From Paenibacillus sp. (GTDB lineage Bacteria; Bacillota; Bacilli; Paenibacillales; Paenibacillaceae): a DNA stretch of 15,012 nucleotides. How positions within the stretch are numbered: the stretch's first letter is position 1; each line of letters begins with the position of its first letter. A program made the translations under genes and the position numbers. Shown here one piece after another: positions 1,332 to 15,012 of this stretch. The notes beneath the pieces were generated by a model that worked only from the letters and a program-made list of their open reading frames with translations, was not told the origin of the DNA and did no database searches. Location of the stretch: NCBI GenBank assembly GCA_029256665.1, contig JAQSXN010000017.1:1-15012 (forward strand), in the 5' to 3' direction.

Positions 1332-1589
1332 GTGTGCAAAGGATTATATTTCGTAAGAAAAATAGGACTTTCATCCAAAAGATAAAGAATCTTTAGAATC
1401 ATTATAAATACAATAATTAACAAATTTAATTTATGTAAATTTAGAATGTAATTGTTTTGTAAAAATAATATACCCGATTATATCGAATTTACATTTAAAA
1501 AACTTCTAATTCATTGAGTGTGATAGAGCGAGTCGATATACTTGGAGATGTTGCAAAAATACATAGATCATGTGGTAGGAGGAAGAGAA
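1332..1589 (+). promoter_or_regulatory. AT-rich leader of the secreted-enzyme operon, probable promoter region
   Basis: This gene-free stretch changes abruptly from GC-rich coding sequence to very AT-rich DNA (about 1332-1500). It must carry the promoter of the operon starting at 1590, because a terminator precedes it. No canonical sigma-A promoter stands out. The best weak pair is TTGTTT (1452-1457) and GATTAT (1476-1481) with an 18-base spacer. A 9-base inverted repeat, ATGTAAATT (1433-1441) and AATTTACAT (1486-1494), brackets it and could be an operator, but such matches are common in AT-rich DNA. Isolated Pho-box-like hexamers occur (TTAACA 1417-1422, TTTACA 1488-1493) without the tandem 11-base spacing of a real Pho box. 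Confidence 0.4.
1577..1582 (+). promoter_or_regulatory. Ribosome binding site fixing the TTG start at 1590
   Basis: A perfect AGGAGG lies 7 bases before TTG 1590-1592. It favours this start over the in-frame upstream ATG codons at 1542 and 1548, and it places the signal peptide at the N-terminus. Confidence 0.85.
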
Positions 1590-4500
1590 TTGAAACCGAA
1601 TGGGAGCAAGACAAAAACAAGCCGTCTGATTTGGGTGCTGTTGTGCGCGCTGCTTATATGGCCGGCGCCGGCGCCGGGACTGAACGAACGGGCGGAAGCC
1701 GCGCCCGACGGGGATACGCTGATCGCCATGGACGGCGTCTGGACGTACCAAGATGACGGGTCCAATCAGCGGACGGCTTGGCGAGACGCGGAATTCGACG
1801 ATGCGGACTGGAATTCCGGGGCGGCCCCGCTGGGATACGGAGGCGCCTTGCCTTTGGCGACGCAAATCCAATATGGCTCCGACGAGGGCAAGAAGCCGAT
1901 CACGGCGTATTTTCGCCATGAATTTACGATAGAGGACGCGACGTCCGTCAAACAGCTGACGGCCAAGCTCATCAGAGACGACGGGGCGGTCGTCTATCTG
2001 AACGGCAATGAAGTATATCGCGCCAATATGCCGGCGGGACCGATCGCCTACAACACCCCCGCGGTCGCTGCCGTCAACACGGAACGCACGGAATATGAAT
2101 TCTCTATTGACCCTTGGTTGCTCGAGGACGGCGACAACGTCATGACCGTCGAGGTTCATCAGAATGCGGCGAGCAGCTCCGACCTGTTCTTCTCGATGCA
2201 GTTGACGGGATTGCCGACGCCTCCGGCCAAGGATAGGGGGCTTTATGCCGAGTATTACACCAACAAAGGACCATCCGGCAACTTCGCATACGACGAACGG
2301 AAGGCAACGACGGTGGACGCCTCCATCAACTTCGCGGATTTGAATCCCGTTCTTGGCAGGATGACCGGCAGAGAGGATACCGCCAGCGTTCGCTGGACGG
2401 GACAAATCGCGGCTCCGACGACGGGAGACTATACGTTCTACCTGAAGGGGGATAACGGCTTCCGTCTCTGGATCGGCGATATGGACACTCCGCTCATCGA
2501 TTTCTGGGAGGACAAATACGACGAGGAAAAGACTAGCCGCGCGATCACCCTGGAAGGCGGACGGAAATACGATTTCAAAATCGAATTTTTCGAAAACTTC
2601 GGCGGCGCCAACCTGTATTTGAACTGGGCGGGACCAGGCATCACCAAACAAATCGTGCCGGCAAGCGCGTTTTATTTGCCGGAGAGCTATGTTGGACCGA
2701 TCGGAGGGAAAGCAAGGGCAGCGGGCAATGCCGTCGATCTGAAGTTCTCGCATGAACTGGCCGCGCTTCCTGCCGACCTGAAGAACCATCTGAGCGTCGA
2801 TGCCGGCGGCAAGTCGATTGCTATCGAGAAAGCGGAGATCAGCGCACTCGATTCCTCGATCGTCCGCGCGGAGCTGGCGGAGAACGTCATTGCCGGACAA
2901 GCTTTATCGGTCCGATATGACGGTGAAGGAGACCTGAAATCAAGCGACGGACAAGATATGAATTCGTTCGTATTCGCCATCGAGAACGCCTCGATGCAGC
3001 TGGATTATTCGCCAGTCGCGATCGCGATGTCGCTGCACGGCAGCGCGAAGACGAATCGTTCGTTCGCCTGGTACACGAATTACGACTACCCGGACGACGC
3101 TCCCGATAACGCGAGAGACAGCATCGTGGAAGTCGTGCCCGCGAGCGAAACCTTCGATTCCCCTAACAAGCTTCGGTTCGAGGGCGAGTCGCAGGTGCTT
3201 CAAAACTTAAAATACAACAATTCAACCACCATCTCGTTTATCGGGCACAAGGCGCTGGTAGAAGGCTTGACGCCTGGAACGACTTACAAGTACAGACTCG
3301 GCAGCGACGGCAACTGGAGCGAGACGGGGTCGTTCGTAACGGAAGCGGAGAACGAGAAGGAGTACGAATTCCTGTATTTGACGGACTCTCAGGGCGGAAA
3401 TAGCGGGGATTACGAAGTGTGGGCCGATACGCTTGGCCAAGCGGTCGGCAATTATCCGAATTCGCAATTCCTTATTATGACCGGCGACATGGTAGATGCG
3501 GGTGCGCTGGAATACCAATGGTTGGATTATTTCGGCAAGCCGCAACAAACATTGCTTAACCTGCCGATCATGGCGGCGGTAGGCAATCACGAAGGTCCTT
3601 ATAACGACAACTATTATTATCACTTCAATTATCCGAACGATCAGATCGACGATCCGCTTCCCCCGGGCAGCGTGTATTCCTACGATTACGGCGACGCCCA
3701 CTTCATGATTCTCAACACGATGGACATGGGATGGGACGCGAGGCAACGCGAAGCGTTCCAGCAGCAGATCGAATGGCTGCGCCGCGAAGTGGCGGGCACG
3801 GACAAGAAGTGGAAGGTCGTCGCGTTCCACAAGGCGATCTATTCCGTTGGCGGACACTCCAAGGAAACCGAGATTTACGAGCTGAGGGACATGCTGTATC
3901 CGGTGTTCGACGAGCTTGGCATCGACGTCGTTCTGCAGGGGCACGACCATTCGTTTGTCAGAACGCACCAAATGTACGGCGACAAGGCGGTACTCGACGT
4001 GGAGAAGGACGAGAACGGCAACCCCCTGAATCCGAAAGGCACGTTGTACATGATCAACAACGCCGCGGGCACGAAGTATTACGATGTTCGGAACGACATC
4101 GACGACTATTACAGCGCCGTGAAGGAGCAGCCGAAGAAGCCGATCTACTCGGGCATCACCATGACTGATGACAGCTTTACGATCGAATCCTACCGTTCCG
4201 GCGAAGCCAATCCTTTCGATACGTACACGATCGTCAGGGACGACAGCAAGCCGGCCGCGGTTACAAGTCCTTCGGGGGGATTGGACGGCAACGGGGACGT
4301 ATCGTTGTCCTGGAGCATGCCGGATGATCCCAAGGAGCGGGAGAAGATCAGAGGCTTCCGAATCTACGAGACTAGCGGCAAGCTCGGGCGCAATTGGAGC
4401 CTGTACGTCCCCGCCGTCAAAGGACAAACGGACTACAGCCAATCGATCGAAGGCGCCGATCCGGACGTAACGTACGAGTTCGCGATCCGGGCGGTCGACG

Positions 4501-5108
4501 AGCGCAACAACTCGGACGAGGTTAAGACGACCGTGAAGGGAGACCGGATCGCATCGCCTTCGGCGCCTGCCGTGGACGACGGCTACAATCGGTTCGGCTG
4601 GAATAACGTGCCTGGCTTCGATTCGCTAACGGATTATGAATTCACGCTTGACGGCGGCGAAAGCTGGGCGGATGTAACGGCGAAGCCGCTCATGATCGGC
4701 GATGCCGACTATGAGACCGGCGCGGTTGGCGTACGCGTCAAGGCGGATGCAGGAGCTGGACGAGAAGCGGGAATTCCGTTGTTCTCCGACAAGCCGTTTA
4801 CCGTGAACAGCGTACATGACATATATTCGATCACCGGCAGCCTGAAACGGGACGAGGGCCTGCATATCGAAGCCACGGTCAAGCGTAGGGCCGATTACGA
4901 CGGTCCCGCCTATGCGGTATTCCAACTGATGGATGGCAACACGCCCATTCTCATTAACGCCGTGCCGATCAAGCGGGATGAAGTCAAGCTGACCCAGCGT
5001 TTCAATGTCAAGGGAGACAACTATAAAGTACGCGCATTCGTGTTCGATTCGTTCGACAGCGAATCCTTGGCGCCGGTAAGTTTGGCAAGAACGGTCGAGT
5101 TCAAGTAA
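1590..5108 (+). CDS. Secreted multimodular metallophosphoesterase (purple acid phosphatase-like)
   Basis: This is a 1172-residue exported protein expected to hydrolyse phosphate esters outside the cell. A signal peptide spans about residues 1-36 (basic start, hydrophobic LIWVLLCALLIWP, then AEAA). After it come a galactose-binding-like module (about 46-213, here module A), a PA14 domain (about 218-363), an Ig/SwmB-like segment (about 369-470), a PAP-type N-terminal fibronectin fold (about 476-590), the calcineurin-like catalytic domain (about 595-880), FN3 (about 888-985) and a C-terminal module B (about 990-1172). Metal-site motifs are D599-S-Q601, G632-D633, GNHE 665-668, H747 and GHDH 784-787. 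The first motif has Gln where DxH or GDxG families differ, so metal content is uncertain. PA14 domains often bind glycans. It is the first gene of a three-gene block, and modules A and B recur in the GH92 protein two genes downstream. The substrate is not proven; phosphorylated glycan is inferred from the operon. Confidence 0.88.
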   Translation: MKPNGSKTKTSRLIWVLLCALLIWPAPAPGLNERAEAAPDGDTLIAMDGVWTYQDDGSNQRTAWRDAEFDDADWNSGAAPLGYGGALPLATQIQYGSDEGKKPITAYFRHEFTIEDATSVKQLTAKLIRDDGAVVYLNGNEVYRANMPAGPIAYNTPAVAAVNTERTEYEFSIDPWLLEDGDNVMTVEVHQNAASSSDLFFSMQLTGLPTPPAKDRGLYAEYYTNKGPSGNFAYDERKATTVDASINFADLNPVLGRMTGREDTASVRWTGQIAAPTTGDYTFYLKGDNGFRLWIGDMDTPLIDFWEDKYDEEKTSRAITLEGGRKYDFKIEFFENFGGANLYLNWAGPGITKQIVPASAFYLPESYVGPIGGKARAAGNAVDLKFSHELAALPADLKNHLSVDAGGKSIAIEKAEISALDSSIVRAELAENVIAGQALSVRYDGEGDLKSSDGQDMNSFVFAIENASMQLDYSPVAIAMSLHGSAKTNRSFAWYTNYDYPDDAPDNARDSIVEVVPASETFDSPNKLRFEGESQVLQNLKYNNSTTISFIGHKALVEGLTPGTTYKYRLGSDGNWSETGSFVTEAENEKEYEFLYLTDSQGGNSGDYEVWADTLGQAVGNYPNSQFLIMTGDMVDAGALEYQWLDYFGKPQQTLLNLPIMAAVGNHEGPYNDNYYYHFNYPNDQIDDPLPPGSVYSYDYGDAHFMILNTMDMGWDARQREAFQQQIEWLRREVAGTDKKWKVVAFHKAIYSVGGHSKETEIYELRDMLYPVFDELGIDVVLQGHDHSFVRTHQMYGDKAVLDVEKDENGNPLNPKGTLYMINNAAGTKYYDVRNDIDDYYSAVKEQPKKPIYSGITMTDDSFTIESYRSGEANPFDTYTIVRDDSKPAAVTSPSGGLDGNGDVSLSWSMPDDPKEREKIRGFRIYETSGKLGRNWSLYVPAVKGQTDYSQSIEGADPDVTYEFAIRAVDERNNSDEVKTTVKGDRIASPSAPAVDDGYNRFGWNNVPGFDSLTDYEFTLDGGESWADVTAKPLMIGDADYETGAVGVRVKADAGAGREAGIPLFSDKPFTVNSVHDIYSITGSLKRDEGLHIEATVKRRADYDGPAYAVFQLMDGNTPILINAVPIKRDEVKLTQRFNVKGDNYKVRAFVFDSFDSESLAPVSLARTVEFK

Positions 5109-5132
5109 CGGGATGAAAGCGAGGACAATACG

Positions 5133-6794
5133 TTGAAAACATATATAGCGGGCATCTTGGTGCTCCTGATGATGCTTCCTTCGCTGCAAGTCTACGCGGC
5201 GCAGGACTTCGCGCTGGCGCTCAGCGCGAAGGAAGTCAAACGCGGCGGCGAGATCGTCGTATCCGGAACGGCGCCTGACGACGCGAGCGACGTATCCGTG
5301 AAGATCGTCAGCCCGAATGGAACGGTATTTTATCTGGAGGCGGCGACGCCCGATAGCGGACGTTACTCCGTTAACGTAATCATACCGACTCAGGCGGAAT
5401 TCGCGCCATACGGCGAATATACGGTCGCTGCCGGTCATCGCACGCTGCAGAAGACTTCGAAGTTTGCCGTAGTTGAACAGCTTGGCGGCGAAGACGGCGG
5501 AGACGGGGACGAGGGCGGAGACGGGGACGAGGGCGGAGACGGGGAAGACGGTGGAAACGGGGATGACGGCGGCAATAACGGCGGCGGGAATCCTGCCCCG
5601 GGTAACGACGTTATTCCTCCGAATGCTGGACAGGTTAGCCGAGGCACCGTGAAGCCTGAGCTCGGCTCTAATGGATATTATATTGCCGGCCGCACTACGC
5701 TGGGTGATGCTTTGAACGGCGCTGGCGATTCCGTCACGATCGAGCTGCCGGCATCGGCAGCGGAGCGCGGGGATTCCTTGGAATTTCCAGCACAATCGCT
5801 TAAAGCGATTGAAGAAGGCAAGAAAAATATCATTCTTAACTCCGGCGGCCTGAGCATGACCTTCCCGGCGGGAAGCATCGGTACTTACGGCACGGGCGAT
5901 TCCCGCATCCGCATTACGGTAAATACATCGTGGACGAGCGAGGCTCAAGATATCGTTGAGCGTTCTATTGCCTCCAACGAAAGCCTGCACCAAGTAGGAA
6001 TGGCACTGTCGGTCGTCATCGAGCTGGTGAACGCTGACGGTACGACGGAGATTCACGAGATGAAGCATCCAGTAACCGTGTCGCTTAAGCTTACTGTGGA
6101 GCAGGAGAACAAACTGCGTCTCAATCTGGCCGGCATCTACGATGTAGACGGCACGCAAGCGACTTATGTTCGAGGCTTCGCAAACAATGGCGTATTCACG
6201 TTCGACGCGGAGCACTTCTCCTATTATGCCGTTCTGGAATACGACAAACGTTTTGTCGATATGGCCAATCACTGGGCCGAGATCTCCGTACAATCTCTGG
6301 CGGCTCAATATATCGTGACTGGCGTGGACGAGCTTCACTATATGCCGGAGAACATCATCAAACGCGCCGACTTCGCGACCATGCTGGTTAGATCCCTGGA
6401 CTGGAAGGGCGCCGACATGCCAGAAGCTACAAAATCGGCGTTCACCGATGTGGACATGGACAGCTACTACGGCAACGCCGTTGGCATCGCCGCAGAGCTT
6501 GGCATCGTTACCGGCTACAACGGCAAGTTCAGACCGAACGACTTGATTACAAGGGAAGAAGCTGCAGTGGCGCTTGCTCGAGCATTGCCTTCTTTCGACC
6601 TTGATGCCGCACAAGGCTCGCCTTCCTTCGGCGACCAAGACGACATCTCGGCTTGGGCCGTGGAATCCGTGCGCGAAGCATGGGCGACCGGTCTGATTAA
6701 AGGCGACGACAAAGGCAATTTCAATCCGAAGCGCACGCTGACGCGGGCTCAGGTAGCGGCCATGATGGACCGGGCGCTGAACCAACAATCGTAA
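5133..6794 (+). CDS. S-layer-homology (SLH) domain cell-surface protein
   Basis: This 553-residue exported protein is expected to sit on the cell wall. It starts at TTG 5133 behind GAGGA (5121-5125), 24 bases after the phosphoesterase stop. A signal peptide ends near YAA (about residue 23). A beta-rich Ig-like domain follows (about 25-113), then an acidic Gly/Asp/Glu-rich linker (about 117-160) and a domain of unknown function (about 170-370). Three C-terminal SLH repeats follow (about 374-420, 437-485, 499-549). Their TRAE-type motifs read KRAD, TREE and TRAQ. SLH triplets bind pyruvylated secondary cell-wall polysaccharide in Paenibacillus and Bacillus. No catalytic motif is visible. Neither flanking enzyme has SLH repeats, so this protein may be a surface anchor or scaffold for them; that role is inferred only from position. 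Confidence 0.9.
   Translation: MKTYIAGILVLLMMLPSLQVYAAQDFALALSAKEVKRGGEIVVSGTAPDDASDVSVKIVSPNGTVFYLEAATPDSGRYSVNVIIPTQAEFAPYGEYTVAAGHRTLQKTSKFAVVEQLGGEDGGDGDEGGDGDEGGDGEDGGNGDDGGNNGGGNPAPGNDVIPPNAGQVSRGTVKPELGSNGYYIAGRTTLGDALNGAGDSVTIELPASAAERGDSLEFPAQSLKAIEEGKKNIILNSGGLSMTFPAGSIGTYGTGDSRIRITVNTSWTSEAQDIVERSIASNESLHQVGMALSVVIELVNADGTTEIHEMKHPVTVSLKLTVEQENKLRLNLAGIYDVDGTQATYVRGFANNGVFTFDAEHFSYYAVLEYDKRFVDMANHWAEISVQSLAAQYIVTGVDELHYMPENIIKRADFATMLVRSLDWKGADMPEATKSAFTDVDMDSYYGNAVGIAAELGIVTGYNGKFRPNDLITREEAAVALARALPSFDLDAAQGSPSFGDQDDISAWAVESVREAWATGLIKGDDKGNFNPKRTLTRAQVAAMMDRALNQQS
5496..5585 (+). repeat. 18-base tandem repeat encoding the acidic Gly/Asp linker
   Basis: The unit GGCGGAGACGGGGACGAG occurs perfectly twice (5496-5513, 5514-5531). 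Three progressively diverged copies follow (5532-5549, 5550-5567, 5568-5585). Each unit encodes six residues (G-G-D-G-D-E type), so slippage would change linker length without shifting frame. The acidic Asp/Gly composition could bind Ca2+, but no defined Ca-binding loop consensus is matched. Confidence 0.85.
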
Positions 6795-6816
6795 GGAACG
6801 GGAGCAGGAGGAAAAC

Positions 6817-9800
6817 ATGAAAAACAAATGGTTTGCGATCGTAATGGCGGTCATGGTAGTGTTCGGTCTGCTGCAGCCGCTTGCGGAGAGCGGGTATGCG
6901 GCAGACGGAGACGGCACGATAGTATCGGCTACGAGGAACGTTGCGCTTAACGCAATCGTTACGGCAACCGGTGCCTGCAATGAAAGAGAAATGCCTCAAT
7001 ACGCGGTAGACGGCAACAGCGCGACAAAGTGGTGCGATAATTCAAACGCGACCAACAAGTGGCTGGAGCTTGATCTTCGCGAAGAGTATGTCATTAATCA
7101 GTGGGTTGTCGAAAACAACTGCATGGCTGAATCCAACAAGTGTCCGTTCTGGAACACGAAGGACTTCCGCCTGCAGAAGAGCGTTGACGGCGAGACTTGG
7201 GCGGATGTCGATGTCGTGAACGACAACTCGCAAACGATCGTCGACCGCTATATTCCGCCCTTCACCGCCCGTTACGTGCGTTTCGTGGCAACGAAAGGCG
7301 CGCAAGACGGTCATACGGTAAGGTTGAACGAATTCAAGCTGTACGGCGTCGAAGTCGGGCAATACCCGGCTTACCCTGCGGTAGAGCTTGAGCCGGTCGA
7401 TTATGTCGATCCTTTCATTAATACGCTTGGGGACAACGGACAGACGAATCCGGGTCCTCGCACGCCGTTCGGCCTGGTCGCGCCGGGACCGGATAGCACA
7501 GGCACTACCGGCAATGCATTCAGCGGCTATTATTATCAGGATCCGGACATTGAAGGTTTCTCGCATGTCCGATTTAGCGGAGTAGGCTGCAGCGGTGCGG
7601 GCGGCAACATTCTGATGTCGCCGCAGACCGGCAATTTCACGAACAACAGCAGCATATACAAGCAAAAGTACGATAAGAACAGCGAGCAGGCTTCCGCCGG
7701 TTATTATGCCGTCGAGCTTGAATCCGGCATCAAGGCCGAGCTGACGGCTTCGGATCGCGTAGGTTTCCATCGCTACACGTTCCCGGCGGACGCAACCACG
7801 CGATCCGTGCTGGTCGATCTGTCTGCCTCTTATGCCGGCATGAATGGCGCGAGCTTGAAGGTGGAAGGCACGAACGAAATTTCCGGGATGATCGATTCCA
7901 AGAACGTCTGCGGACACGGCAATTATCGTCTGTATTATTCCATTCAATTCGACAAGGACTTTACTTCCGCGACAACATGGAAGGATGGTGCTACTAGTTC
8001 CGAAACCGAGCGCGAAGGCGTTAACATCGGCGCCTGGTTCAACTTCGACTCCGCAGCCGGAGAGACGATCCAAGCCAAGGTGGCCCTGTCGCCAATCAGC
8101 GTGGAGCAAGCCAAGTACGAGCGCGATCACGAAATCGAAGATTGGGATTTCGACGCGCAACACGAGAAGACGCGCGACGTATGGAGCGAGGCTCTAGGCA
8201 AGGTCGAGATCAAGGACAGCAACGAAGAAAATAAAAAAATCTTTTACACTCAGCTGTACCATGCTTACCAGCACCCTAACAACGTAACGAGCTCATTGGG
8301 ACAATTCCGCGCGGCGCGCGACGAATCCGTCTTGCGCGAGAGCTCCGAGATCGGCGAATCTTTCGATTATTACAACGGCTGGTCGACATGGGACGACTTC
8401 CGCAAATATTCCCTGTATTCGCTGCTGGAACCGCAGCGTTTCGAGAACATGGCGAAATCCATGATCGACGTTTACGAGACGCGCGGCTCTTATTCGCAAT
8501 GGGGGGCCGGCTACTGGCCGAGTCCGACCGTGCGCAACGAGTTTAACGGGGCCGTCATTCTGGACGCCATAGCCAAAGGCTTCGACTTTACAGACGAGCA
8601 ATTAGAGACGGCGCTGAAAGGAATGGCGGAGGATACCGACCAGTACACAGTCGAGGCGGGCAAGTTCAACGGCGGACTGGAGAAAGCCTACAGCGCCTAC
8701 TACCCGATGAAGCTGGCCGAGATGTTAAACGATCCGTACACGTACGATAAGTATAAGACGCTTGCTATGTCATATAAGCAATTGTGGAATCCGAACCAAG
8801 TGGACGAGAAGGGAGTGAAACAAGGTTTCTTCACTCCCGGCGGCGGAAACGTGCCTAGCGGATCCGTGACGAAGGTTAACGAATATGCCTACCAAGGCAA
8901 TATGTGGACTTATCGTTGGTTCGTGCCGCATGACGTGAACGGCATGGCGGAGCTGATGGGCGGCAAACGCGAGATGGCGATCGATCTGCAGCACTTCTTC
9001 GCAATCGACGAGTATGTCGCGATCAACGAACCGGACCTGCATGTCCCTTATTTGTTCAACTATCTGGGCATGCCATATTTGACGCAATACTATGCCCGTG
9101 AATACACGACGGAAGCCGTCGTTCAGAAGTATCATAACCACGGCTTGTACGAGAACCCGCTGTTGTCGCGCGTGTACCGTGCCGATCCGGAAGGCTACCT
9201 GTCCTCCATGGACGACGATGCCGGGGCGATGTCTTCATGGTTCGTGTACAGCGCGATGGGATTGTTCCCGGGCAACCCCGGCGATCCTTATTACCTGATC
9301 GGTTCCCCGATCTTCGAAGAGATGACGCTGAACCTGGACAACGGGAACAGCTTCACGATCAAAGCAAACGGAGTATCCTCCGCTAACCGCTTTATCCAAT
9401 CCGCCGAGCTGAACGGCGCAAGCTTCGATCAAGCCTGGATTAGCTACGAGGATCTGATGGCGGGAGGCACGCTTGAGTTCGAGATGAGCTCCGCACCTAA
9501 CGTCGAATGGGGCGCGGATCCTGAAGCGGCGCCTCCGGCGACCGACTTCTCCGGAGAGCCCACGGCTCCGGACATTCGCAAGGATGTCATCGCAGCTGGT
9601 TCGGAATGGCGATATCTGGACGAGGGCCGTTACGCCGGCAATGGCTGGACGGAGCTTGCGTTCGACGACCAGAGCTGGAAGTCAGGTAATGCGATATTAG
9701 GCTACGGCGGCAGCAACGTGACGACCACGGTGGGCTATGGTTCGAATGGCACCAATAAATATCCGACGACATACTTCCGTCAAACATTCGAATTAGACGA

Positions 9801-12261
9801 GCCGTCCAAGATACTTGGCCTTGAGGCCGGCGTCATTCGCGACGACGGCGTAATCGTGTACGTCAACGGCGTGGAAGTGTTCCGCAGCAACATGCCGAAC
9901 GGGCCGGTGGACTACGAAACCCATGCCAACGGAACAGTCAATAACGAACGTGACTGGATTACGTTCCGATTCGATCCTTCCTTGCTGGTCGAAGGAGAAA
10001 ACATTATCGCGGCAGAGATTCATCAGGTCAACGCGACGAGCTCGGACATCGCGTTCGACTTCCGTCTGGATGCGATCAAACCTTTGTCCGTGCCGGAGGC
10101 GCCTACGAATCCCGTTGTGGAAGATAAGGCCAATACGTTCGCTTGGACCAATGTCCCTGGGTTCACGGCAGCCGGCGATTATGAATATAGCATGGATGCC
10201 GGGGAGACTTGGAAGCAGGCGACTGGCAATCCGCAATTGATCGGACCGTTCGATCTGAAAGCGGGAGACGTACGCGTTCGCGTCAAGGCGGATTTGGCCA
10301 AGGAACGGGCAAGCGGTAAATCGCTGCTCTCCGATAAGCCATTTGAAGCGGATCGTTTATGGGATCTATTCGACCTTCACGCGGAAGTAACGAACGAAGG
10401 CAACTTGTCCGTTCAAGTGGAAGGCAAGCTGAAGAGCGAATACAACGATTCCGCGTACATTGTGTTCCAGCTTATGAACGCGGAAGAGAAGGCATGGATG
10501 ACGAGCTCGATGCCGGTCGAAGCCGGAGATTTTGAGGTCGAGCAATTATTTAACGTCAAGGGTGACCCCTATAAGGTTAACATTTATCTGGTCGATGAAT
10601 TCAACGGCAACGTCTACGACTCGACTTGGCTGGCGGAGCCGATCGCTCCGAAGCCGGAGGAAGAGCCGGAGCCGGGTACGGACCCGAGCGAGCCGGGCGA
10701 GCCTGCTCCGGAACCGCTGCCGTTGCCGGTCAAGGAAGTAAGACCGATCGAACCGCTAGGGCCGGACGGCACGGTTACGCCGATTGGGCCGATTGATCCG
10801 CTGGACCCTAATACGCCTATCCCTCCCGGTGAAGGACCGATCCGCGTTGACTTCGAGAACAGGACGGAATGGACGGACGGGCGAAGCGCCATCAACAACC
10901 GCGGGCTTAAGACGGAAGCTAACAACAACGGCAATACGGTTGTGGGCGATACGTTCGACGGCGCATGGCTGGCATTCCGGGATCTGAACTTCGGCGAGAA
11001 GGGCAGAGACGCGGTTGAAGTCGAATACGATGCTCCGTCGAACCGCGTGCCTGCCGACGCTCGTCTGGAATTCCGTCTAGGATCCGCCGATGGAGAAGTC
11101 ATTGCCGACATGGCACTGCCGAACACGGGCAATGCATGGAAAACACCGTATACGAAAATAAAAGCGCATTTCAGCCGTACCGTTACCGGGGTGAACGACG
11201 TGTTCGTCGTCATGCGCGGATCGATTAACAACGATCTGCCTTACATCGGCAATTTCGACCAATTCACGCTGATCAACGAAGGCTTGCGTTACGATTACGC
11301 CAAGCTGGAGCTGGAGAAGTACAACGAATGGGCAACGGGCAATCACCCGGTGCAAGGAACGCCGCTCAAGGTGGAGAACGGCAAAAGCGGTCAACAAGTG
11401 GCCAATACGTATAACGGCGCTTGGGTGGCGTACAAAGGCATGAACTTCGGGGATTCCGGCGTCAATACGTTTTCCGTCGAATATTCCGGCAACTCTGCGA
11501 ATACCGCAGCCGATTCTGCGTTGGAAATTCGATTGGGCGCCGTGGACGGAACACTGATCGGCAAAGTCGAAACTCCGCCGACGGCATCGAGCTGGGGAAC
11601 TTATGCCACTGCTTCGATTGATCTGACGCAACAGCTAACGGGAGTTCACGATATTTATCTTGTGTTCGCAGGCACAGTAAACAATACGTTTAAGTACATC
11701 GGCAACTTCGATAACGCCGCGTTCACTTTGACGACTCCGCCTCAGGAACCGGAGCCGGAACCAAGCCCGGACCCGCAGCCGGAACCAAGCCCGGAGCCGG
11801 ATCCTAATCCCGAGCCGAACCTGACGCTGCAGTTCGAATCCGCTAGCCAACAGTCGGATGCGGCTAATGCATTCAACAACGGCAAGCTGGGAACGGAAGC
11901 AGGCAACGGCGGAACCGTCGTGAAGAACACGTTTACGGGAGCTTGGCTGCAGTTCGACAATGTCGACTTCGGAACGCAAGGCAAGTCGAAAGCCTCTATC
12001 GTGTACTCGGCTCCTTCTAATCGGGTACCGAACAACGTTAGTGCCGAGCTGCGCCTTGGAGGCGAGAACGGTCCGGTTATCGGAACGGCAAACCTTACGA
12101 ACACAACGGCTTGGAACGTATTTAATACGGTCAATTTCGACCTGATTCAAGTCTTGACAGGCAGTCAGAGCATTTACGTGGTATTTACGGGATCGACGAC
12201 AAGCGATGTTCCGTACATCGGCAATTTGGACAGCATGACGTTCTCCTCCGGTACGAACTAA
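6817..12261 (+). CDS. Secreted GH92 alpha-mannosidase-family enzyme, putative mannosyl-phosphate hydrolase
   Basis: This 1814-residue exported protein starts at ATG 6817 behind AGGAGG (6806-6811), 22 bases after the SLH gene. Order: signal peptide (about 1-29, ending GYA), F5/8 type C/CBM32-like domain (about 35-187), GH92 catalytic region (about 194-899), module A (about 918-1087), module B (about 1091-1275), Pro-rich linker (about 1276-1341), and three CBM6-like repeats (about 1343-1488, 1490-1640, 1669-1814) with a PEP linker before the last. GH92 landmarks include VDPFINTLGDNG, GFSHVRFSGVGC (usually GFSHTHLSGTGC), NEP 737-739, WFVPHD and MDDDAG at 798-803 (general-base region). Characterised GH92 enzymes are Ca2+-dependent inverting exo-alpha-mannosidases. 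The acid position of the usual Y-x-E-G-N-x-W-x-Y motif reads Y-Q693-G-N-M-W-T-Y, so Glu is replaced by Gln. This points to a substrate with a good leaving group such as mannose-1-phosphate diester, or to a weak or inactive enzyme. The three CBM6-like repeats suggest a polymer or cell-wall substrate. Confidence 0.9.
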   Translation: MKNKWFAIVMAVMVVFGLLQPLAESGYAADGDGTIVSATRNVALNAIVTATGACNEREMPQYAVDGNSATKWCDNSNATNKWLELDLREEYVINQWVVENNCMAESNKCPFWNTKDFRLQKSVDGETWADVDVVNDNSQTIVDRYIPPFTARYVRFVATKGAQDGHTVRLNEFKLYGVEVGQYPAYPAVELEPVDYVDPFINTLGDNGQTNPGPRTPFGLVAPGPDSTGTTGNAFSGYYYQDPDIEGFSHVRFSGVGCSGAGGNILMSPQTGNFTNNSSIYKQKYDKNSEQASAGYYAVELESGIKAELTASDRVGFHRYTFPADATTRSVLVDLSASYAGMNGASLKVEGTNEISGMIDSKNVCGHGNYRLYYSIQFDKDFTSATTWKDGATSSETEREGVNIGAWFNFDSAAGETIQAKVALSPISVEQAKYERDHEIEDWDFDAQHEKTRDVWSEALGKVEIKDSNEENKKIFYTQLYHAYQHPNNVTSSLGQFRAARDESVLRESSEIGESFDYYNGWSTWDDFRKYSLYSLLEPQRFENMAKSMIDVYETRGSYSQWGAGYWPSPTVRNEFNGAVILDAIAKGFDFTDEQLETALKGMAEDTDQYTVEAGKFNGGLEKAYSAYYPMKLAEMLNDPYTYDKYKTLAMSYKQLWNPNQVDEKGVKQGFFTPGGGNVPSGSVTKVNEYAYQGNMWTYRWFVPHDVNGMAELMGGKREMAIDLQHFFAIDEYVAINEPDLHVPYLFNYLGMPYLTQYYAREYTTEAVVQKYHNHGLYENPLLSRVYRADPEGYLSSMDDDAGAMSSWFVYSAMGLFPGNPGDPYYLIGSPIFEEMTLNLDNGNSFTIKANGVSSANRFIQSAELNGASFDQAWISYEDLMAGGTLEFEMSSAPNVEWGADPEAAPPATDFSGEPTAPDIRKDVIAAGSEWRYLDEGRYAGNGWTELAFDDQSWKSGNAILGYGGSNVTTTVGYGSNGTNKYPTTYFRQTFELDEPSKILGLEAGVIRDDGVIVYVNGVEVFRSNMPNGPVDYETHANGTVNNERDWITFRFDPSLLVEGENIIAAEIHQVNATSSDIAFDFRLDAIKPLSVPEAPTNPVVEDKANTFAWTNVPGFTAAGDYEYSMDAGETWKQATGNPQLIGPFDLKAGDVRVRVKADLAKERASGKSLLSDKPFEADRLWDLFDLHAEVTNEGNLSVQVEGKLKSEYNDSAYIVFQLMNAEEKAWMTSSMPVEAGDFEVEQLFNVKGDPYKVNIYLVDEFNGNVYDSTWLAEPIAPKPEEEPEPGTDPSEPGEPAPEPLPLPVKEVRPIEPLGPDGTVTPIGPIDPLDPNTPIPPGEGPIRVDFENRTEWTDGRSAINNRGLKTEANNNGNTVVGDTFDGAWLAFRDLNFGEKGRDAVEVEYDAPSNRVPADARLEFRLGSADGEVIADMALPNTGNAWKTPYTKIKAHFSRTVTGVNDVFVVMRGSINNDLPYIGNFDQFTLINEGLRYDYAKLELEKYNEWATGNHPVQGTPLKVENGKSGQQVANTYNGAWVAYKGMNFGDSGVNTFSVEYSGNSANTAADSALEIRLGAVDGTLIGKVETPPTASSWGTYATASIDLTQQLTGVHDIYLVFAGTVNNTFKYIGNFDNAAFTLTTPPQEPEPEPSPDPQPEPSPEPDPNPEPNLTLQFESASQQSDAANAFNNGKLGTEAGNGGTVVKNTFTGAWLQFDNVDFGTQGKSKASIVYSAPSNRVPNNVSAELRLGGENGPVIGTANLTNTTAWNVFNTVNFDLIQVLTGSQSIYVVFTGSTTSDVPYIGNLDSMTFSSGTN
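10840..12261 (+). repeat. Three CBM6-like carbohydrate-binding repeats in the GH92 protein
   Basis: Three units of about 145 residues share the ends PYIGNFD, KYIGNFD and PYIGNLD. They also share a GAW(L/V)xF/Y strand and an (E)xRLG strand. Units 1 and 3 are the closest, sharing APSNRVP. The fold pattern resembles CBM6/35-type beta-sandwich carbohydrate-binding modules. Tandem copies would raise avidity for a polysaccharide. The family assignment is by pattern recognition and the ligand is unknown. Confidence 0.65.
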
Positions 12262-12308: not shown

Positions 12309-12358
12309 AAAGAAGCTTCCAGGATCCGCGGTAGATGCGGGAACTGGAAGCTTCTTTT
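12309..12358 (+). terminator. Probable bidirectional terminator between convergent genes
   Basis: A perfect 14-bp stem (12309-12322 with 12344-12357) encloses a loop that contains a further CCGC/GCGG stem (12326-12329 with 12337-12340). On the + strand it ends in TTTT. Read on the minus strand, TTCTTTA closes the hairpin. It lies between the stop of the GH92 gene (12261) and the stop of the convergent ATP-grasp gene (12390), so it probably serves both. Confidence 0.85.
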
Positions 12359-12389: not shown

Positions 12390-13640
12390 CTATTTCAAGG
12401 AATTCGACTGCTTCTTGTCATAGAAATAAAGCTTGAAGTTTTTGACGTGGCTATAGTAGTATCTGGCGATGCGAATGACTCGCTTCAAGTTCAGATCTTT
12501 TTTGTACCAGATGGAATACAGCACTTTCTTCTGTTTGAACAGCCCTTCGATCTCGGCGGATAACGCTGGTTCGGTGACGTACTTTCGCAATACCGTCCTC
12601 GGCACGTTGGTCCACATCCCGATTTGGCTGCCGTATACGCAGTCCGAGTTTTTGCCGTAGACGACTTGATCGATCATCGCGGTGATCATGTTCAGTCCCG
12701 CCGCCCTGACGAAGAAGCTGCTTCGGCCGAGGCGGGGATTGATTTCGAACAGCATGTATTTGCCCGTTCGGCTGTCGTATTTCATATCGATGTTGGAGTA
12801 GCCGACGTATCCGATCTGCTCGAGAAACGCCTTGATTTTTTTGTAGATGTCCATGTCGGAGCGCGAGATGATCGCCGCGTAATTGCCAAGCGTCTTAGGC
12901 GCGTATTCCTCCAGCACGGGCTGGCCGAGGCACATCATCTTGACGACTCCGTCATTGTCGGAGAAGCTGTTGATAACGCGCATGGAGCTGTCCTCGCCGG
13001 GAATGAATTCCTGAATGATCAGCTTGCCCATGTAGTCGGATTGATTCATGCTGCGAACCATCGTGAAATATTCGTCCTTCGATTTGAAGAAGTACACCTT
13101 CTTCTTTCCCTCGAACTCGCTGTGCAAATACGCGTAAGCATTGCTGTTCTCGGGTTTGACGATAATCGGGAATTGAAAATCCATGTGATCCAGCGCGATT
13201 TCGCGTTCATGTGGCTCGCATACGATCGTCTTGGGGTAATCCAGTCCGTACTGCTCGCATAGCTTGTAGAATTTGTCCTTCGTATCGAGCGTGTCCAGAA
13301 GCTCGTGCGATATAAATCGGTTAGCGATCAGCCCTTTGAACTTATCGTAATGCCGCGACAGCATGCCGGCATAATAATCCGAGCAAGGAATGACGATCAG
13401 CTTGCGCGTAGGAGAGGCGTATTGTTCCAATATGGAAAGCAGCGCGCCGGGAAATACGTCGTCACGGTCAAAGTCGTCGAATCGCACAAGATCGAACAGC
13501 TTGCTGTTCATGGTCGGTATGAGCAGGCGGCTGCACAGAAGCAGCGGCTTTATCCCGTAAGCTTCATGGATCAGTCTGACGTTTCCATATGCATTCTCGT
13601 CGCTTCCGAGTATGATGGGCAGAAAATCGTTATTGTTCAT
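12390..13640 (-). CDS. ATP-grasp carboxylate-amine ligase, D-aspartate-ligase-like
   Basis: This 416-residue soluble protein has an ATP-grasp fold, which joins a carboxylate (through an acyl-phosphate) to an amine. The N-terminus FLPIILGSDENAYGNVRLIH resembles, from memory, the D-aspartate ligase Aslfm of Enterococcus faecium, which adds D-Asp to peptidoglycan precursors. ATP-grasp motifs are IVKPEN with K162, QEFIPGED at 210-217 and the Mg-binding FEINPR with E299 and N301. The frame extends 39 codons upstream, but ATG 13640 is chosen because AAGGAG lies 5 bases before it and the family similarity begins there. It is transcribed alone, convergent to the GH92 operon. The true substrate pair is unknown, since most Paenibacillaceae have directly cross-linked peptidoglycan; it could instead modify another wall or capsule component. 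Confidence 0.75.
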   Translation of the reverse strand: MNNNDFLPIILGSDENAYGNVRLIHEAYGIKPLLLCSRLLIPTMNSKLFDLVRFDDFDRDDVFPGALLSILEQYASPTRKLIVIPCSDYYAGMLSRHYDKFKGLIANRFISHELLDTLDTKDKFYKLCEQYGLDYPKTIVCEPHEREIALDHMDFQFPIIVKPENSNAYAYLHSEFEGKKKVYFFKSKDEYFTMVRSMNQSDYMGKLIIQEFIPGEDSSMRVINSFSDNDGVVKMMCLGQPVLEEYAPKTLGNYAAIISRSDMDIYKKIKAFLEQIGYVGYSNIDMKYDSRTGKYMLFEINPRLGRSSFFVRAAGLNMITAMIDQVVYGKNSDCVYGSQIGMWTNVPRTVLRKYVTEPALSAEIEGLFKQKKVLYSIWYKKDLNLKRVIRIARYYYSHVKNFKLYFYDKKQSNSLK

Positions 13641-13645
13641 GATAT

Positions 13646-13651
13646 CTCCTT
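13646..13651 (-). promoter_or_regulatory. Ribosome binding site fixing the ATP-grasp start at 13640
   Basis: On the minus strand AAGGAG is followed by ATATC and then ATG (13640). This argues against the longer open frame that begins at 13757. Confidence 0.8.
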
Positions 13652-13683
13652 GCCTTGTAGGTTCTATATTGAAGTATTGTCCC

Positions 13684-13713
13684 AATGTACAGTCTAATAC
13701 TTTCGATTGCCAA
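13684..13713 (-). promoter_or_regulatory. Candidate sigma-A promoter of the ATP-grasp gene
   Basis: On the minus strand TTGGCA (13713-13708) is separated by 18 bases from TACATT (13689-13684), giving five and four matches to the consensus hexamers. Its position about 45 bases before the start codon is suitable. This is a weak prediction from sequence only. Confidence 0.35.
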
Positions 13714-13858
13714 TCTACAACTCTATTTTTTGACGCGCCATTATCAATATCGTGCAATGGAGTAGATCATGAAAAACAAATGCGCGAAAACAGGCGTTGC
13801 AGTATACTAGTAACATTCAATATGGAAGCGTTGTCATTTTACGAAAGTAATTAGAAAG

Positions 13859-13887: not shown

Positions 13888-15012
13888 ATGCCGCTGCAAC
13901 GAATCAGCATCCGCTTCCGGCTTATGGTGCTCATGATTACGCTAACGACGCTGCCGGTCGTCACGGTCACCTGGCAGGCTACGAACAATACGAGAAGCTC
14001 AGTAGAGAAGGAGATGATCGACGCCAACGAATCCCGGATGGTCTGGGCCAGCCAATATTTGGACGAATTGATCGAGCAGATGGATACGCTGTTCTATGCG
14101 CTTCATATCCGCTCCGACTTGATCGGGGATCTGACGAGAATCGACGACTTGGAAGCGGGAGAACGGTATCGCCTGCAAAATGCTTTATTCGCCGCCATGA
14201 ACACGGCCTACTACTCGTTCTCCCGCAAGATCGACAACTTGACGTTGTACATGCATGCCACGGAGCGGGCCTATTCGGTCAATTACGCCAATAGCGGCAT
14301 CACCCATTCGCTCGATATTCGCGAGGGTCCGTGGAGCCGCATGTTAACAGAGCCGTCAGGCTTGTATTTCAAGGCGTCCGGCGACATGCTGAGCGCGTAC
14401 CATTCCATGAACGAATTCCAAGGGCAGGAGCTTATCGGCGGCATCTCCGTCCGAATCGACGACAAGGTTTGGCGGCAAGCGGGAGAGCTATTGCAATCGG
14501 AGCCGGAAAGCGCGATCTATCTCGTCAGCGACGACGGGGAGCTGCTTCCCGGCTCTTCGCCGTTGCCCGATGACGCGGAGCTGCTTCAGGCGCTGGAGGG
14601 AGCTGGCCGCGCGCGCTCTCCGGACGTGGCTTTCGCGAGGACGAAGCAGGACTACGTATTCTCGAAGCGGGTCAGCGGCGGCGAGCTGCGGATCGTCAAG
14701 GCCATACCCGCCGCGACGATCGACGCCATCGCCCAGCGGACGATGACGGCGGGCTTATGGACCGGCGTGTTGTTCACGGCCGTTTCCATACTCCTGTCCA
14801 TCGTCGTGTCGCTGCGCATCAGCCGCCCGATCGTCAGCTTGGCTAAGACGATGAGGAAATCGCACATTCACGATTTCGAGATGAAGTCCGTGCAGAGCAG
14901 TGACGAGATCGGGTTGCTGGAAGCGGGCTACAACTTCATGATGGCCCGGATGAAGGCGCTCATCGAGAACGAGTACCAGCACGAGATCGACGTGAAGAAT
15001 GCCCAGCTGATC
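13888..15012 (+). CDS. Two-component sensor histidine kinase, YesM type (3' end outside window)
   Basis: The frame opens at ATG 13888, 4 bases after AGGAGGG, and is still open at the right edge after 375 codons. A first membrane helix (about residues 12-30), an extracellular Cache-like sensor domain (about 31-285), a second membrane helix (about 289-312) and a HAMP linker (about 312-365) are seen in order. The last residues, ENEYQHEIDVKNAQLI, match the start of the His_kinase segment of YesM/LytS-type kinases; the phospho-accepting His should follow just outside. In Paenibacillus such kinases are usually paired with an AraC-type response regulator and control carbohydrate uptake or extracellular enzymes. 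Whether it controls the operon at 1590-12261 cannot be told from here, since the ATP-grasp gene lies between them. Confidence 0.88.
   Translation, partial: MPLQRISIRFRLMVLMITLTTLPVVTVTWQATNNTRSSVEKEMIDANESRMVWASQYLDELIEQMDTLFYALHIRSDLIGDLTRIDDLEAGERYRLQNALFAAMNTAYYSFSRKIDNLTLYMHATERAYSVNYANSGITHSLDIREGPWSRMLTEPSGLYFKASGDMLSAYHSMNEFQGQELIGGISVRIDDKVWRQAGELLQSEPESAIYLVSDDGELLPGSSPLPDDAELLQALEGAGRARSPDVAFARTKQDYVFSKRVSGGELRIVKAIPAATIDAIAQRTMTAGLWTGVLFTAVSILLSIVVSLRISRPIVSLAKTMRKSHIHDFEMKSVQSSDEIGLLEAGYNFMMARMKALIENEYQHEIDVKNAQLI

Follow-up and report, generated by a model that had tools for sequence, protein, structure and literature searches.

A candidate dock-receptor pair for surface anchoring and its two-enzyme case, a predicted phosphomannan operon of Paenibacillus

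We analyzed a 15,012-nucleotide stretch of DNA from Paenibacillus sp. (hereafter the window) and found a predicted three-gene operon whose middle product appears to belong to a recurring system for mounting proteins on the cell wall. Our main reading, which we hold to be reasonably probable, is an undescribed form of trans-anchoring in Paenibacillaceae and related Bacillota. A beta-sandwich domain of about 100 residues, here called the dock, would bind a receptor domain on a wall anchor encoded by the neighboring gene; the docks sit on secreted enzymes and repeat proteins, and the anchors are of the SLH or the sortase type. The dock-receptor pair is a stronger and newer reading than the pathway that the operon suggests, the operon being its two-enzyme case. 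For the operon itself we lean slightly towards a two-enzyme surface complex that combines GH92 uncapping, dephosphorylation, and docking to the anchor.

Gene organization and conservation of the operon

The window is one whole contig of an assembly that is 64% complete and split into 630 contigs, so absences in this genome prove little. Three open reading frames on the same strand end at 5108, 6794, and 12261. The gaps between them are 24 nt (5109-5132, phosphoesterase to anchor) and 22 nt (6795-6816, anchor to GH92), as the initial annotation had given them, and its calls of a phosphoesterase, an SLH protein, and a GH92 enzyme are right by Pfam. The best start of the phosphoesterase gene is a TTG at 1590, preceded by AGGAGG; the anchor gene starts with TTG at 5133 and the GH92 gene with ATG at 6817. 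Judged by eye, the N-termini of all three proteins resemble Sec signal peptides, in agreement with the signal peptide annotated on each. The features are as follows.

1290-1332, + strand: intrinsic terminator with T-tract, separating the operon from the thymidine kinase gene before it (folded segment 1286-1336, -27.5 kcal/mol, z -4.3)
1590-5108, + strand: secreted-looking PAP-like metallophosphoesterase with signal peptide, one domain that the GH92 protein also has, PA14, PAP N, Metallophos, fn3, and dock (Pfam; shared domains from cross-matches)
2235-2663, + strand: PA14 domain (PF07691, residues 232-374 of the 1542-5108 translation)
3372-3953, + strand: Metallophos catalytic domain (PF00149) with D-x-Q, GDxVDxG, GNHE, H, and GHDH
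4797-5105, + strand: C-terminal dock domain of 103 residues (our own dock searches and profile)
5133-6794, + strand: surface anchor with signal peptide, receptor, Gly/Asp/Glu-rich linker, middle domain, and SLH repeats (PF00395)
5208-5480, + strand: N-terminal receptor domain "slhN" (receptor searches; family weakly MG2-like)
6243-6791, + strand: SLH repeats (PF00395)
6817-12261, + strand: secreted-looking multidomain GH92 protein with F5/8C, GH92, CBM6, CBM35, and domains in common with the phosphoesterase, including a dock variant (Pfam, NCBIfam TIGR01180)
7402-9489, + strand: GH92 catalytic domains (PF17678 and PF07971, residues 196-891; best solved relative 2xsg, CcMan5)
8893-8895, + strand: Gln693 at the general-acid position, where ordinary GH92 has Glu (alignment)
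10363-10644, + strand: dock variant within the GH92 protein (profile match, E 3.6e-14)
11380-12186, + strand: CBM6 and CBM35 region (Pfam)
12309-12358, + strand: intrinsic terminator with T-tract, 3' of the GH92 gene (folded segment 12308-12362, -32.2 kcal/mol, z -7.2)

The two hairpins confirm the terminators annotated before the first and after the last gene (fold z -4.3 and -7.2), and none of 200 shuffles folded equally well for either. A simple terminator scan missed both, possibly because each stem has a bulge or an internal loop. Together, the small gaps, the flanking hairpins, and the conserved trio indicate that the three genes form a real, predicted operon. An Rfam scan of the window gave no match. 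Downstream, a gene for an ATP-grasp protein (PF02655) at 12390-13757 on the minus strand runs convergent to the operon, and 13888-15012 on the plus strand holds the 5' part of a protein cut by the contig end, which by eye resembles a membrane sensor kinase and had no Pfam match.

A search of 60 genomes with the GH92 catalytic domain, the window's genome among them, found a full-length operon-type gene in the latter and in six genomes of the same genus. The GH92 proteins of those six are 66-86% identical, and the phosphoesterase and SLH genes stand in the same order in all six. A scan of GTDB species genomes, in which 80 of 177 relatives were retained, added loci from Paenibacillus, Fontibacillus, Saccharibacillus, Gracilibacillus, Lentibacillus, and others; its patterns included NMWTYRWF and MDDDAGAM, so that Gln-type enzymes were favored. 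Operon-type GH92 was found in 26 loci, with all three genes in 23 and GH92 without the other two in three. One contig of 466,962 bases was counted under two labels (L033 and L040); the repeat is included in the 26 and the 23 and excluded from the 22 distinct loci, which come besides the window. The initial annotation had proposed looking for the gene pair in relatives, and phosphoesterase, SLH, and GH92 genes do occur together in these 22 distinct loci. Neither the flanking thymidine kinase gene nor the ATP-grasp gene had a match in the 29 relative loci compared.

The GH92 protein belongs with CcMan5

Pfam gives the order F5/8C, GH92N, GH92, CBM6, and CBM35, with PF17678 and PF07971 far over their cut-offs and a match to 2xsg at E 1.9e-111. 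At the general-acid position, YQGNMW of the window aligns with YQGTLW of 2xsg and TEGNAW of 6f8z: ordinary GH92 enzymes have Glu here (EGN), whereas CcMan5 and the window have Gln. All 26 fetched operon-type copies carry this Gln, and the downstream acidic cluster MDDDAGAMS is kept in the operon-type enzymes. The replacement of Glu by Gln reportedly marks phosphodiester activity (Tiels et al. 2012), and CcMan5 is said to need no general acid, phosphate being a good leaving group.

A tree of 47 sequences places CcMan5 in one clade with the operon group, with support of 1.0. A pair of Glu-type Bacteroidota sequences is the operon group's immediate sister, so Gln either arose twice or reverted once; the closest non-Bacillota relatives likewise have Glu at the acid position. 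Clade and residue (Gln in 26/26) support the uncapping type proposed in the initial annotation. Passages of PMC5930347 report that CcMan5, from Cellulosimicrobium cellulans, targets Man-alpha-1,6-PO4-Man phosphodiester linkages, and parts of PMC9246025 describe its use for uncapping glycans to mannose-6-phosphate. The general acid and the bases of GH92 are named in sections of PMC5930347 and PMC10167667, and the latter reports that Ala and Gln variants at the acid position of Bt3990 had not entirely lost activity on alpha-1,2-mannobiose.

A separate group of 57 Bacteroidota GH92 sequences (L060-L117 minus L086) has the CcMan5-like YQGT, with Gln in 57 of 57, under search patterns that favor such enzymes; these are possibly further uncapping enzymes, going by the motif. 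Next to Gln-type Bacteroidota GH92 genes, pairing with a phosphatase was inconsistent: the ten neighboring proteins from nine loci included members of phosphate-ester families in two cases (one GDPD and one Exo_endo_phos), together with three DUF218, in three of the nine loci, and otherwise other families.

The phosphoesterase and the loci with PhoX upstream

The phosphoesterase has a PAP N and a Metallophos domain, with PF16656 and PF00149 over cut-off; an NCBIfam scan of the protein gave no match. Its metal-ligand motifs (D-x-Q, GDxVDxG, GNHE or GNHD, H, and GHDH) are kept in the rows of all 23 relatives, L040 being L033 again. We take GDxxY to be the purple acid phosphatase motif that holds the metal-ligand tyrosine. 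The window has GDMVDAG instead, and Asp stands at the Tyr position in 23 of 23 relatives' rows. Since this tyrosine is missing, we call the enzyme PAP-like and not a PAP. The PAP-like enzyme of the initial annotation stands as far as its PAP N and Metallophos domains go, and departs from the family in its motif I, D-x-Q, and in a second motif, GDxVDxG, without Tyr.

In three loci (L043, L045, and L058), the phosphoesterase is reduced to a degenerate C-terminal stretch immediately 5' of GH92, with a TAT-signal-bearing PhoX alkaline phosphatase encoded just upstream (E 1e-82 to 1e-83). The three loci share 96-97% identity across the region and are treated as a single event. Their GH92 had no dock match, and the stretches examined had no receptor match. 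On the sequence comparison, the PhoX-bearing loci make the strongest case for a phosphatase as a partner of GH92.

A putative dock on the enzymes and a putative receptor on the anchor

The receptor was suggested by a change of anchor type. In L038, L039, and L042 (Paenibacillus bovis, Gracilibacillus orientalis, and Lentibacillus populi), the anchor gene is the final one of the three, and its product has the same N-terminal domain of about 90 residues followed by an acidic linker, LPNTS or LPDTS, a hydrophobic stretch, and basic residues, which we take to be a sortase-type anchor in place of SLH. As the N-terminal domain alone is common to both anchor types, it suggested a receptor role.

Single-sequence searches of 99 genomes gave 17 receptor and 12 dock matches outside the operon, and the partner domain adjoins all 12 of the docks and 16 of the 17 receptors. 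These matches fall into 19 loci, and in 18 of them a large ORF with a dock directly adjoins a protein with SLH repeats and receptor, L149 being the exception; in L147, receptor and SLH repeats are on two ORFs, as from a broken frame. Sixteen of the 18 dock partners were scanned with Pfam (L146 and L153 left out) and show seven architectures. They comprise an esterase, a type I phosphodiesterase, 5'-nucleotidases, Metallophos proteins with or without Big_2, Shr-like HID, pectate-lyase-like, and aBig_2 repeat proteins (L141 from an overlapping ORF). The dock is the sole domain common to all scanned partners, some of which also share Metallophos with the window's phosphoesterase, and it is N-terminal in L143, L145, and L146. 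The SLH query matched none of the 38 dock-bearing ORFs of the loci read. The dock copy in GH92 is 27% identical to that of the phosphoesterase.

By these comparisons, the SLH protein is a predicted member of a recurring anchor/dock pair and not a loose companion, with a dock on both enzymes. The initial annotation had supposed that the SLH protein would hold the process at the surface; it missed the pairing of anchor and dock genes, whose recurrence favors such a role.

Survey of genomes of the window's family

Profiles of 17 rows each were run on 197 genomes of the window's family, which the named relatives indicate to be Paenibacillaceae. The receptor was found in 58 genomes and the dock in 57, and every genome with a dock has a receptor. 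Docks lay within 8 kb of a receptor on the same strand in 92 of 95 cases and receptors were paired in 68 of 72, but with seeds taken from linked loci and genomes that are related to each other, such counts measure the conservation of linkage and not independent events, and 92/95 overstates independence. The different partner types are a better measure of pairing.

Among the 92, 57 docks are immediately upstream of the receptor (105-262 nt between domains), nine are upstream at about 3.6 kb, as with the N-terminal dock in L143, and 26 are downstream. Twenty-four of the latter, at 4.8-5.6 kb, are arranged like the GH92 copy and are putative GH92 docks; in the other two, L174 and L175, the anchor gene comes first and the dock gene second. 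Of the three unpaired docks, two are followed directly by an SLH protein that gave no receptor match, and the third, L169, has none nearby.

A further search of 99 genomes with the receptor profile gave 58 matches in 42 genomes. Of 19 more receptor loci, 13 have a dock (one scoring 11 bits only and one 3.3 kb away), and in six no dock was found in the stretch read. In two of these six the receptor is in a 2113-residue protein beside a separate SLH protein, L201 has a triple receptor, one has a weak score, and L197 and L198 resemble plain anchors. SLH proteins with three tandem receptor-like domains, all weakly scoring, occur at L201:9331-11643 and L172:7019-14443, with no dock match in the stretch read; judging from their domain content, they are possible multivalent scaffolds. 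At L186:6972-12317 and L187:4416-9773, the receptor lies inside SLH proteins of about 1780 residues with a dock gene nearby, so that an anchor may itself carry other domains.

The domain preceding the dock was tried as a neighborhood control and is operon-specific (18 matches, all in the nine operon genomes), hence uninformative. Searches of protein databases with the dock and the receptor found two and five close relatives only, the window's own included.

Structure prediction for the dock and receptor

In the window, the phosphoesterase stop and the anchor start are in one frame and a single in-frame stop joins the two, as in seven other loci. Natural read-through fusing enzyme and anchor was dropped as an explanation because the two ORFs do not share a frame in other relatives. 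For AF2 modeling, the stop was read as Gln, giving a tandem of dock, short linker with the signal peptide, and receptor, and the alignment had 26 rows (8 tandem and 18 single-domain). The predicted structure reached a pTM of 0.82, a prediction from one tandem with the phosphoesterase dock and no measure of binding; pLDDT was mostly above 90 in both domains, and the linker was of low confidence. A control from the same anchor, consisting of receptor, disordered linker, and middle domain, gave 0.62, which in such a model is about what the larger domain would contribute alone. Our own estimate for two independent domains of such size is a pTM of roughly 0.45.

The model shows both domains as all-beta. 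Weak similarity to MG2 was seen in 14 of 17 members of the receptor family (best E 3e-7), the listed matches of the window's own copy not including MG2. No Pfam family covers the dock, the window's copy giving no match even at E 1, and comparison of the dock and receptor profiles detected no relationship (probability 0.2%). Among the best 50 of 1973 Foldseek matches in the PDB, TMq was at most 0.37, which is what matching of a single Ig or MG domain at a time would give.

Possible phosphate regulation and mannan context

Three tandem TTWAC-like half-sites at 11-nt spacing, scoring at least 14 of 15, are found upstream of 15 of 23 operons, with pattern and threshold set after the sequences were seen. 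The same pattern occurs in 0 of 189 other upstream regions of these loci and in 1 of 250 from other loci. Operon upstream regions have an A+T content of 0.67 versus 0.54 in the controls, and A+T-rich controls scored at least 14 in 0 of 59 and 0 of 64 cases. A first scan with a B. subtilis-type consensus, for which start codons were picked by a simple ribosome-site rule, outscored 95% of shuffles in just two of the 23 upstream regions. In seven carrier genomes, the pstS-type gene has two consecutive half-sites in all seven and never three in a row under the pattern used; two consecutive half-sites also occur in 10 of 70 A+T-rich control regions.

With a score of 11.7, the operon promoter in the window lacks a convincing Pho box. 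Phosphate control of the operon family is likely, to judge from these repeats. The phosphate link of the initial annotation gains from the repeats in 15 of 23 operons and from PhoX upstream of the decayed phosphoesterase, and finds no backing in the window's promoter.

GH76 genes are present in seven of nine operon-carrier genomes, the window's included, and were not found in the carriers G013 and G004. A separate contig of the window's genome has three consecutive GH76 genes (C155:2158-5838), likely an alpha-mannan locus by gene content. According to passages of PMC10154615, fungal alpha-mannans contain phosphate bridging two mannoses; phosphate terms had no match in PMC9213526.

Proposed mechanism and alternative explanations

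The operon would encode a cell-surface complex of two enzymes acting on phosphorylated alpha-mannan. GH92 would take the alpha-mannosyl cap off Man-alpha-1-P-6-Man diesters and expose mannose-6-phosphate, with phosphate as the leaving group, so that a general acid would not be needed; the PAP-like enzyme would next free the phosphate. Both enzymes are presumably secreted and lack a recognizable anchor of their own, and the middle gene's product would hold them on the wall. The N-terminal domain of the anchor would bind the C-terminal dock of the phosphoesterase and the divergent copy in GH92, and its SLH repeats, or the sortase-type motif in three relatives, would attach to the wall. We infer both reactions, their order, the physical binding, docking through the GH92 copy, and induction by phosphate limitation. 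Coupled uncapping and dephosphorylation is plausible from its genomic context; the pathway of the initial annotation has gained comparative support from the conserved trio, the CcMan5 clade, and the PhoX case, and its enzymatic steps are still predictions.

The operon might instead serve general phosphate scavenging, with GH92 opening mannosyl-phosphate diesters, a broad surface phosphatase or phosphodiesterase, and mannose as an incidental product. We consider this possible, if doubtful. The Pho-box-like repeats, the alkaline phosphatase family gene phoX where the phosphoesterase has decayed, the several other dock partners that are phosphoesterases (5'-nucleotidase, type I phosphodiesterase, and Metallophos with Big_2), and the two carriers with an operon and no GH76 (G013 and G004) all fit it, whereas GH76 in 7/9 carriers, including the window's genome, and the several glycan-binding modules on GH92 speak against it. 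A more ordinary reading makes GH92 a common alpha-mannosidase whose Gln merely lowers activity, beside a phosphoesterase with an unrelated substrate in a loose set of surface enzymes. That nearest outside relatives have Glu is in its favor, as is the residual alpha-1,2-mannobiose activity of the Bt3990 Ala and Gln variants reported in PMC10167667; with Gln in every one of the 26 operon-type copies, the clade shared with CcMan5, and the conserved trio with its PhoX case, we judge it distinctly unlikely.

For the dock-receptor pair, the alternative is a duplicated ancestral two-gene cassette, in which the two domains are adjacent by descent without binding to each other, and the SLH protein serves some other purpose. 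We find such descent alone unlikely to account for the data: the mostly fixed gene order, the relatedness of the loci, and the receptor proteins with no dock nearby agree with it, but the dock is the partners' only common domain, L174 and L175 have the opposite order, L143, L145, and L146 carry the dock at the N-terminus, the anchor type is swapped in L038, L039, and L042, GH92 copies without a dock are also without an anchor, and the tandem model has a pTM of 0.82 versus 0.62. Binding of dock and receptor is the reading that we prefer.

Significance and comparison with known systems

If the pair binds, Gram-positive bacteria would have a further way, in addition to cohesin-dockerin, of placing enzymes in trans on an SLH anchor. 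The dock occurs in about 3 of 10 of the genomes sampled from the window's family (57/197), and the pair could serve surface display. One domain would then also predict the partner of many unannotated surface proteins. The operon offers a testable route by which soil bacteria might gain phosphate and mannose from fungal wall phosphomannan, and its GH92 enzymes are candidate uncapping enzymes for the production of mannose-6-phosphate glycans. Neither the trio nor the dock-receptor pair is described in the titles and abstract openings listed for open-access literature on the pathway and on SLH-based assembly, and the negative extends to that literature only.

A phosphomannanase of Bacillus circulans (the PR-factor of McLellan and Lampen) is said to be a Bacillus-group enzyme that opens yeast phosphomannan. 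We know of no gene assigned to it, and its identity with the present operon is a guess. The yeast-mannan system of Bacteroides thetaiotaomicron includes a phosphatase. Its loci resemble our case in degrading fungal alpha-mannan with GH92 among other enzymes, and differ in that the fragments are imported, as described in parts of PMC10154615. CcMan5 (PDB 2xsg and 4aq0) shares the supported clade and the Gln at the general-acid position. To our knowledge, it is known as a single enzyme and not within a phosphatase-anchor operon. It also has a CBM32, the F5/8C type, according to a section of PMC10167667. S1 of Paenibacillus curdlanolyticus B-6 is likewise an SLH protein proposed to collect enzymes at the surface; it differs in build, with 863 residues, two N-terminal SLH, and an assembly described as glycosylation-dependent (PMC6823336).

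Most loci have one receptor domain per anchor, with three in L172 and L201. In the type II cohesin-dockerin system of cellulosomes, an enzyme-borne module binds a separate SLH-anchored receptor protein. The present pair differs in that the three operon proteins have no cohesin or dockerin Pfam match (E 0.001), and in that its two domains are modeled as all-beta, with a receptor family that is weakly MG2-like. By analogy with that system and in keeping with the model, a module on the enzyme would here too bind a separate SLH-anchored receptor.
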